64,000 bases of DNA from assembly GCF_002924445.1 (NCBI RefSeq), contig NZ_PIGG01000034.1, positions 1-64,000 on the forward strand, given 5' to 3'. Shown here piece by piece: positions 16,548 to 25,323 of the stretch. The stretch's first letter is position 1; every line of letters begins with the position of its first letter. Below the pieces are notes generated by a model. The model did no database searches. It was given only the letters and a program-made list of their open reading frames with translations, and was not told the DNA's origin. The stretch comes from Minwuia thermotolerans. GTDB taxonomy: Bacteria; Pseudomonadota; Alphaproteobacteria; Minwuiales; Minwuiaceae. The position numbers were made by a program, and so were the translations under genes.

Positions 16548-16628
16548 GTCACCCCCGCCCAGTGCGGGGGTCCGGAGCGGCTTCGCCGCCAGCCCCTGAC
16601 CGGATGCCCGCACGGGGGCGGGCATGAC
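16548..16628. repeat. Paired palindromic REP-like repeat
   Basis: Two hairpin units face each other: GTCA plus a CCCCGC/GCGGGG stem and TCCGG at one end, and CCGGAT plus a GCCCGC/GCGGGC stem and ATGAC at the other, with about 25 bp between. The same architecture recurs at 23595-23703, and a single unit occurs at 24082-24109. The element lies inside the 3' end of the enolase-superfamily gene and supplies its last residues and stop codon. Confidence 0.8.
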
Positions 16629-20919: not shown

Positions 20920-21012
20920 CGTTCCAACTTTCGATCGAGCAGACCGCCACGGGGAACAGAAGTCGTCCGGCGGCCCTTTTCGAACGCCCACCGCTGACGC
21001 ATATTGGCCCCC

Positions 21013-23283
<2,271 letters not shown>

Positions 23284-23562
23284 GTGATCCACCGCATCGA
23301 TTGCGTCACCGCGCTGGAGCCGGGGGACGCCATGTCCCGCATCCGCGACTGCATCTCCCGCGTCGAGGGCCGCATCGCCGACCAGCGCCGCGCCGGGGGC
23401 AAGGGCGCGGCCTTCAGCTTCCACCTGCCCGACGACCGCTTCGAGGACCTGCTGGACGGCCTGCCGGAACTGGCCGTCTATGTCGAGCGCGCCGCCGGCC
23501 CCGAGCGCGTCCGCTTCCGCGAGATCCGCTGCCGACTGGCGCTGGTGTTCTCGGAAGGGTGA
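23284..23562 (+). CDS. Small conserved-looking protein coupled to uvrB
   Basis: The 92-residue protein starts with GTG directly after the uvrB stop codon, with no intervening base. Third-position GC is as high as in uvrB, which supports real coding. It reads IHRIDCVTALEPGDAMSRI, then RVEGRIADQRRAGGKG, FSFHLPDDRFEDLLDGLPEL and an RFREIRCRLALVF ending, an alternating helix-strand pattern without a family I recognise. The direct abutment suggests translational coupling with uvrB and perhaps a role linked to repair, but that is inference. Confidence 0.6.
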   Translation: MIHRIDCVTALEPGDAMSRIRDCISRVEGRIADQRRAGGKGAAFSFHLPDDRFEDLLDGLPELAVYVERAAGPERVRFREIRCRLALVFSEG

Positions 23563-23594: not shown

Positions 23595-23703
23595 GTCATG
23601 CCCGCCTGCGTGCGGGCATCCGGTTGCTCTGGCCGAGGCAAGGCGCGAACGCATCAGAACGCGCTCACGGCCAGCCCGGATCCCCGCACAAGGCGGGGAT
23701 GAC
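23595..23703. repeat. Paired palindromic REP-like repeat
   Basis: The left unit (23595-23623) is GTCATGCCCGC...GCGGGCATCCGG and the right unit (23676-23703) is CCGGATCCCCGC...GCGGGGATGAC. They are inverted relative to each other and separated by about 50 bp of unrelated sequence. The architecture equals that at 16548-16628. The right unit is identical over 28 bp to the single unit at 24082-24109, so the GIY-YIG gene is bracketed by direct copies. Confidence 0.85.
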
Positions 23704-23763
23704 AATGAGTAGGCGGGCCTTTCCGGACTTGTGCGGATTCTCAGGCCGACGCAGCATCCACTG

Positions 23764-24108
23764 ATGGCTCGGGACCGCCTCGTCTACATCCTCACCGACC
23801 ACCGGAACGGGACGTTCTATGTCGGGATGACGAACGACCTCGTGCGGCGCATGGAACAGCACCGCGCCGGCACGGCGGGCAGCTTCAGCGAACGCTATGG
23901 CCTCCGGCACCTCGTCTGGTACGAGCGCCACGACGATCCGAACATGGCAATACGGCGGGAAAAGCGTATCAAGAGGTGGCCGCGGGCGTGGAAACTGAAG
24001 ACAATAGAAGCTTCGAATCCCGACTGGCGCGACCTGGCCTATTCGCTTGGCGGCGCCGCGATCCATGATTGCCCACGGATACCGGATCCCCGCACAAGGC
24101 GGGGATGA
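23764..24108 (+). CDS. Small GIY-YIG nuclease, C-terminus encoded by a repeat
   Basis: The 114-residue protein is a single GIY-YIG domain: VYI at 7-9, YVG at 19-21, Arg28/Arg29, His33, and the catalytic Glu66 in MAIRREKRIKRW. Stand-alone domains of this type (UPF0213/YhbQ-like) usually end near the NPDWRDL motif, here at 85-91. The last eight residues, PDPRTRRG, and the TGA are encoded by the palindromic repeat at 24082-24109. An identical copy of that repeat lies 60 bp upstream of the start codon. The likely role is DNA endonuclease; a function in moving the repeat is a hypothesis. Confidence 0.85.
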   Translation: MARDRLVYILTDHRNGTFYVGMTNDLVRRMEQHRAGTAGSFSERYGLRHLVWYERHDDPNMAIRREKRIKRWPRAWKLKTIEASNPDWRDLAYSLGGAAIHDCPRIPDPRTRRG

Positions 24109-24109
24109 C
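24082..24109 (+). repeat. Single palindromic unit, direct copy of 23676-23703
   Basis: These 28 bases are identical to 23676-23703. The unit contains the hairpin ATCCCCGC-acaag-GCGGGGAT flanked by CCGG on the left and GAC on the right. It forms the last codons and stop of the GIY-YIG gene. No partner unit in inverted orientation is visible next to it. Confidence 0.85.
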
Positions 24110-24147: not shown

Positions 24148-25323
24148 ATGCGCCCCGCGAGTTCGCCACCGCACCTGATCACGCTGATCCTGCTGACCGC
24201 CACGGCGGTCTCGTCGCTGAACCTGTTCCTGCCGGCGCTGGCGCACATGGCCGAGGCGTTCGCGACCGACTACGCCACCATGAGCCTCGCGGTGGGCGGC
24301 TATCTGGCGGTCACCACGATCGTGCAGCTCGTCGCCGGCCCGCTTTCCGACCGGATCGGACGGCGGCCCGTGGTGCTCGGCGCGCTGGGCATCTTCGCCG
24401 CCGCCTCGGTGGGCTGCGCCCTGTCGGACGACATCGAGACCTTCCTCGCCTTCCGCATGCTGCAGGGCGCGGTGATCGCCTGCCTCGCGCTCTCCATGGC
24501 CAGCGTGCGCGACACCACCACGGCGCAGGACGCCGCGACCCGCATCAGCTACGTCACCATGGCGATGGCGCTGTCGCCGATGCTGGGGCCGGTGCTGGGC
24601 GGCGTGCTCGACACGGCCTTCGGCTGGCGCGCGAACTTCTGGTTCTACGCCGCCGCCGGCCTGGCGATGGCGGCGCTGGCCTTTGCCGACATGGGGGAAA
24701 CCCACGTCAAAGGGGGGGAGAGTGTCCGGCACGGCTACGCCACGCTGCTCAGGATCCCGCGTTTCTGGGGTTTCCTGGCCTGCATGACCACGTCGACGGC
24801 GGGCTTCTACATCTTCATCGCCGGGGCGCCGCTGGTGGCCGCCGAAAGCTTCGGCATCTCCTCGGCCATGCTGGGCGTCCTCATCGGCTCCATCACGGCC
24901 GGCTTCATACTGGGCAGTTTCCTGTCCACCCGGCTGACGCGGCGGGTGGGGATCGTGCAGATGATGCTGGCCGGCCGGATCGTCGCCTTCGCCGGTCTGG
25001 GGCTGGGCGCCGCCATCCTGCTGGGCGGGCATCTCAGCCTCTGGACCTATTTCGGCGCGATGATCTTCGTCGGCATCGGCAACGGGCTGACCATGCCCAG
25101 CGCCCATTCCGGCATCATGTCCATCCGCCCCGACTTGGCCGGCACGGCCGCCGGCATGACCGGCGCGCTGACCGTGGCCGTCGGCGCCGCGCTCACCCTC
25201 ATGACCGGCGTGCTGCTGACCCGGGCGGACGCGCCGCTGACACTCATGCTGATCATGCTGGGCGCGACGGGCGTCGGCCTGGTAGCGGCGCTGCTGCTCA
25301 AGCGGGAGCGGCCGGCGCGGTAA
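24148..25323 (+). CDS. MFS drug-resistance transporter (Bcr/CflA type)
   Basis: The 391-residue protein has twelve predicted membrane helices, with MFS motif A as GPLSDRIGRRPV between helices 2 and 3 and the antiporter motif C region ALSPMLGPVLGGVL in helix 5. These place it in the DHA1 Bcr/CflA drug:proton antiporter group. It exports small, often hydrophobic compounds across the inner membrane. It follows the GIY-YIG/repeat unit and converges on the badI-like gene. Confidence 0.88.
   Translation: MRPASSPPHLITLILLTATAVSSLNLFLPALAHMAEAFATDYATMSLAVGGYLAVTTIVQLVAGPLSDRIGRRPVVLGALGIFAAASVGCALSDDIETFLAFRMLQGAVIACLALSMASVRDTTTAQDAATRISYVTMAMALSPMLGPVLGGVLDTAFGWRANFWFYAAAGLAMAALAFADMGETHVKGGESVRHGYATLLRIPRFWGFLACMTTSTAGFYIFIAGAPLVAAESFGISSAMLGVLIGSITAGFILGSFLSTRLTRRVGIVQMMLAGRIVAFAGLGLGAAILLGGHLSLWTYFGAMIFVGIGNGLTMPSAHSGIMSIRPDLAGTAAGMTGALTVAVGAALTLMTGVLLTRADAPLTLMLIMLGATGVGLVAALLLKRERPAR

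Follow-up and report, generated by a model that had tools for sequence, protein, structure and literature searches.

Introduction

REP palindromes are short repeats, and in the RAYT/REPIN system they are associated with REP-associated tyrosine transposases (RAYTs) and carry a GTAG tag (PMC2817692, PMC3116915). In that system there is one gene per genome and REP type, bracketed by REP palindromes and accompanied by tens to hundreds of gene-free inverted REP pairs; several gene/REP types can coexist, and the REPs outlast loss of the gene. A second class, the CGTC REPs, was defined by Di Nocera et al. in 2013 (PMC3733652) by a CGTC/TGTC/CCTC end tag with A-T starting the stem, a stem of 8-9 bp, a loop of 4-5 nt and, in most members, a CCA tail. 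These repeats are mostly paired and mainly alphaproteobacterial, and dRS3 of Neisseria was listed among them, but the survey concluded that they "apparently lack a dedicated transposase" and left their spread open. Two further groups are relevant because they share a domain with the protein considered here: the single-domain GIY-YIG proteins of the UPF0213 type (PDB 1zg2, 1ywl), whose structures are of uncharacterised proteins with no REP link described in the papers searched, and the GIY-YIG homing endonucleases of the I-TevI type.

Here we examine a locus in a 64,000-nucleotide stretch of the Minwuia thermotolerans genome (contig NZ_PIGG01000034.1, positions 1 to 64,000; hereafter the window), where a small GIY-YIG gene lies between CGTC-class REP palindromes. 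As in RAYT/REPIN, the genome carries one such gene and dozens of copies of the palindrome, but the protein is a GIY-YIG protein and not an HUH/Y1 transposase, and the tag is of the CGTC and not the GTAG type. The same pairing, with different repeats, recurs across many bacteria, making this enzyme family a strong candidate for the missing partner of a large class of "orphan" bacterial repeats. Neither the survey of 2013, in whose main text the string GIY does not occur, nor RepRanger 2025 (PMC12306157) mentions such a link, and none was found in the other literature searched, although preprints and most subscription journals lay outside that search and a prior report is not excluded.

Architecture of the locus

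The original prediction described a 114-residue GIY-YIG open reading frame between two identical 28-bp copies of a palindromic repeat, and this observation is confirmed. The gene (23764-24108, plus strand) starts at ATG 23764, encodes 114 amino acids and stops at 24106-24108. The protein matches only Pfam PF01541 (E = 4.6e-14). The identical 28-bp palindromes, REP 2 and REP 3, lie at 23676-23703 and 24082-24109, both on the minus strand, and the stop codon TGA is part of the downstream copy. REP 2 is half of an inverted pair with REP 1 at 23595-23623 (plus strand, GTCATGCCCGCCTGCGTGCGGGCATCCGG, GTCA tag outward), and together they form a REPIN-like doublet at 23595-23703, which as single-stranded DNA folds far better than shuffled sequences (z = -5.0; z = -3.7 for REP 3). 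One refinement concerns orientation: the direct orientation originally described is true of the two identical copies, but the meaningful layout is an inverted bracket, with the GTCA tags outermost at 23595 and 24109 and the tag of REP 3, which closes the bracket, reading CGTC on the minus strand. A second, gene-free doublet at 16548-16628 (REPs at 16548-16575, plus strand, and 16600-16628, minus strand), which had been described as another occurrence of the upstream element, has the same design but not the same sequence (4 mismatches in 28), and it is absent from the orthologous spacer of the sister species.

The palindromes fit the CGTC REP class. REP 3 reads CGTC-AT, REP 2 TGTC-AT and REP 1 GGTC-AT, and the stem ATCCCCGC/GCGGGGAT (8 bp) encloses a loop of 5 nt. 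The tail, however, is CCGG in this genome and not CCA, which is found in many other homolog loci; as CCA is attributed only to most members of the class, this is not strictly defining. The upstream neighbour of the unit is uvrB (21004-23283, plus strand, identified by Pfam hits), and the downstream neighbour is an MFS transporter gene (24148-25323, plus strand, PF07690). Between uvrB and the unit, at 23284-23562, lies a 92-aa open reading frame without a Pfam match, and a matching stretch is present in the sister species.

The whole genome (4.9 Mb, designated G000) holds 79 matches to the pattern GTCAYNCCCGCN{2,10}GCGGGNRTCCGG and none to the reversed control pattern, and therefore chance or a composition artefact is rejected. 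Most of the 79 sit in inverted pairs with an outer length of mostly 81-110 bp. The same flank matches three contigs of the assembly (C4, C15 and C37) equally well, two of them at identical coordinates, which suggests redundancy in the assembly. Only one other GIY-YIG hit was found in the genome, with 38.6 bits in a 628-aa open frame, which we take to be UvrC.

Properties of the GIY-YIG protein

Among 15 aligned homologs, positions Y8, Y19, G21, R29 and N85 are invariant and E66 is nearly invariant, so that the catalytic Tyr, Arg, Glu and Asn of the GIY-YIG nuclease superfamily are retained. An AlphaFold2 model (pLDDT 88) is nearest to the UPF0213 protein 1zg2 and to Slx1, a nuclease for branched DNA, though no Foldseek hit reaches E 0.001. 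At the sequence level, 1zg2 and 1ywl, which have the same domain and a similar size, match with E values of 4e-4 and 3e-3. The protein shares the catalytic domain of I-TevI-type homing endonucleases, and its gene lies inside its proposed target, but it has no separate DNA-binding domain, there is no intron, and only weak model matches were obtained (TIGR01453 below cut-off). A phage or defence gene was considered and rejected: PHROGs and PADLOC gave only weak partial hits, and only one phage record matched, at 33% identity.

Homologs in other Proteobacteria

Homologs were collected by a protein scan of named genomes (29 loci) and of relatives, and they occur in alpha-, beta- and gammaproteobacteria. 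They are bracketed by palindromes whose stem sequence differs from genome to genome while the outer GTCA/CGTC tag recurs, and the repeats found beside the genes include GTCATTCCCGCGAAAGCGGGAA and GTCATTGCGAGCGTAGCGAAGCAATCC. With a tagged-hairpin detector, convergent palindromes lie on both sides of 18 of 56 homologs and 0 of 177 other genes of the same loci; the 56 include the window itself, its sister copy and one genome that appears to be seen twice (loci L042 and L069), so that independent cases are slightly fewer. Without any tag, the inverted-repeat score between the two flanks is higher for the homologs (median 28 versus 15, Mann-Whitney p = 8e-12), and 11 of 17 further loci from other genomes reach the same threshold. 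Roughly a third of homologs show no bracket by these detectors. Overall, homologs are near such repeats far more often than other genes, whereas the lack of such an excess had been set beforehand as a refutation of the prediction.

The Neisseria gonorrhoeae homolog is bracketed by CGTCATTCCCGCGCAGGCGGGAATC units of the dRS3 type. In Sinorhizobium meliloti (CP090106.1) a truncated second copy of the same GIY-YIG gene end plus a REP precedes the gene, suggesting a tandem duplication. Two PLSDB "plasmid" records, one of N. gonorrhoeae (NZ_CP119140.1, 2.17 Mb) and this S. meliloti record ("pSymB", 3.7 Mb, with gltA and lpxAB), look like chromosomes filed as plasmids.

Different paralogs also carry different repeats. 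The sister species (G006) has four paralogs, whose flanks carry four different palindromes (A, B, C and D). A scan for GTCA-tagged hairpins without prior motif in 1.2 Mb of its 4.7 Mb, to which the sister-genome work was confined, gives exactly A, B and C as the abundant families, whereas D, present upstream only, was counted by pattern (8 copies). In another genome, G124, about ten strong paralogs have mostly distinct CGTC-type palindromes, and two weak homologs lack a full bracket. However, protein similarity and repeat similarity covary only weakly across loci (rho 0.16, p 0.011), and a strong co-phylogeny of protein and REP was not supported.

Co-occurrence of gene and repeat

Within the genus, type A REPs number 79 in G000 and 74 in G006, which share the type-A gene at the same locus (98% identical), and 0 in five other species. 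Types B plus C number 54 in G006, which has the corresponding genes p2 and p3, and 15 in G000, which lacks them. On the other hand, type D is about as common in G000 as in G006 (18 and 17) although G000 lacks the fourth gene, p4, and type E occurs in the congeners G001, G003 and G004 with a gene but also in G002 and G005 without one. Across 114 genomes of the class, at least three copies of a generic CGTC REP occur in 20 of 35 genomes with a strong family match and in 7 of 79 others (p = 9e-8), and the association holds with genome size in a logistic model (z = 4.4). The repeat class is thus much rarer in genomes without the gene, whereas equal spread in genomes lacking the gene had been named as the other refutation of the prediction, but exceptions exist, as G108 (38 copies) and G097 (18 copies) have REPs and no detectable gene, and strict dependence of REPs on the gene is not supported. 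That the seven exceptions are remnants of gene loss is a guess, by analogy with E. coli, where REPINs are commoner with RAYT but persist without it (PMC8049555).

IS200-like (Y1/RAYT) transposases were not found in G000 (no PF01797 match anywhere in the genome), in G006, in three congeners with a gene or in G022, G018, G013, G041 and G017, these being ten gene-carrying genomes of the 16 searched, whereas control genomes such as E. coli gave matches. RAYTs are therefore not the general driver here, and in the genome of the window a RAYT as driver is rejected.

Gain or loss of the unit

In G000 the sites of G006 p2, p3 and p4 lack the gene: the p3 site has a type-A REPIN, the p2 site what looks like a decayed one, and the p4 site neither gene nor repeat. 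Of 38 comparable type-A sites, 14 lack type A in G006, and 4 of those 14 hold a B or C element instead; a preference of REP-bearing spacers for exchange with other REP types is only suggested by this, since p ranges from 0.0001 to 0.04 depending on the assumed base rate. In Azospirillum lipoferum 4B (NC_016623.1, 255506-255799) the gene, with a REP doublet on each side, lies between sufB and sufC in a spacer of 617 bp, where A. ramasamyi, A. oryzae, Azospirillum sp. B510 and A. thermophilum have 55-129 bp and lack the unit. Clean insertion boundaries and target duplications were looked for at the 38 orthologous sites and at the Azospirillum site and were not found; the edges are ragged in every case, and the flanking spacer is often replaced too.

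Discussion

What does this protein do beside its palindromes? The association of gene and REP is real, general and type-specific, and of this we are nearly certain. That the protein is the functional partner of CGTC REPs is likely. As the best mechanism, which we hold with moderate confidence as a combined statement, it is proposed that the locus is the gene-bearing copy of a two-part repeat system, in which the nuclease would recognise and nick its cognate REP hairpin in cruciform or single-stranded form, and repair of the break would then copy or exchange REP units between spacers, with occasional capture of the gene-bearing copy. In this view the system works like RAYT/REPIN, without being a member of it, and is built on an unrelated nuclease. 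Against this explanation stand the genomes with REPs and no detectable gene, the persistence of types D and E without their genes, the lack of clean ends or target duplications in the site comparisons, the weak covariation of protein and REP sequence, and the homologs, roughly a third, that show no bracket. The linkage of gene and REP, the different REP families at the paralogs, the co-occurrence across genomes, the gain or loss of the unit at given sites and the lack of RAYTs in the genomes named above rest on our data. Cleavage of the REP, including that of an uninterrupted target, the strand and site cut, and spread driven by repair are inferred, from sequence and a predicted fold rather than from biochemical or in vivo evidence. 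The interpretation in the original prediction, that the nuclease may cut at or help spread the repeat as a REP-plus-GIY-YIG mobile unit distinct from RAYTs, is therefore partly supported: the distinct unit is supported, whereas cutting or spreading remains plausible, because the catalytic residues are intact and the predicted fold resembles Slx1.

If these GIY-YIG proteins are the partner of CGTC REPs, REP systems evolved at least twice with unrelated nucleases, a large annotated but unexplained protein family gains a role, and the question of how these widespread repeats spread becomes testable. A broader reading, which is possible but which we hold only tentatively, is that they represent a distinct class of bacterial mobile element, in which a single-domain GIY-YIG nuclease, with no transposase, spreads itself and a large population of gene-free CGTC REP/REPIN copies by cutting cognate hairpins and using host repair; it would account for the CGTC REP palindromes of alphaproteobacteria and for dRS3 of Neisseria.

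Among the alternatives, the one that survives best, though we consider it unlikely, is that the REPs spread by some other route and the gene is a free-standing homing endonuclease that inserts into REP pairs by cutting them, so that the gene depends on the REPs but not the reverse. On the one hand, GIY-YIG is a classic homing nuclease family, the gene sits between REPs, at two sites of G006 a gene-bearing unit occupies a spacer where G000 has, or seems to have, a type-A REPIN, and REPs can persist without the gene. On the other hand, almost every REP family has one gene copy, which does not fill its dozens of REP sites, REP abundance tracks gene presence, and no alternative transposase of the IS200/RAYT kind was found. 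Less likely still is a house-keeping or regulatory role, in which the nuclease resolves or trims REP hairpins, or is regulated by them, and was fixed beside REPs by selection without mobility. The single copy in the genome of the window, its conservation at the same locus in two sister species and a predicted fold nearest to UPF0213 and the structure-specific Slx1 could point in this direction, but presence is patchy even between sister species (p2-p4 are absent from G000), the unit interrupts the suf operon spacer in A. lipoferum, and many non-allelic paralogs carry different REPs in one genome. An indirect link, whereby REPs, which are intergenic and whose spacers also exchange other REP types, gather where small dispensable genes such as this one are tolerated, is very improbable, since none of the 177 other genes is bracketed and neither the inverted geometry nor the paralog-specific REP type is explained.

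Two additional features of the repeats were observed. The same insert of about 23 nt (CCTGCCCCTGACCCCGTTCGGGG, with small variants) sits in the loop of type-A REPs of G006 (contig C1, at 330744, 4240748, 4207113 and 4362320) but not in the orthologous REPs of G000, while at 226902 both genomes have it; it may be a micro-element targeting REP loops, or a trace of REP-to-REP conversion. Finally, more distant GIY-YIG homologs (loci L085 and L086) are bracketed by another repeat, CCTTCATCCTGAGCTTGTCGAAGGA or a close variant, so the pairing may extend beyond CGTC REPs.
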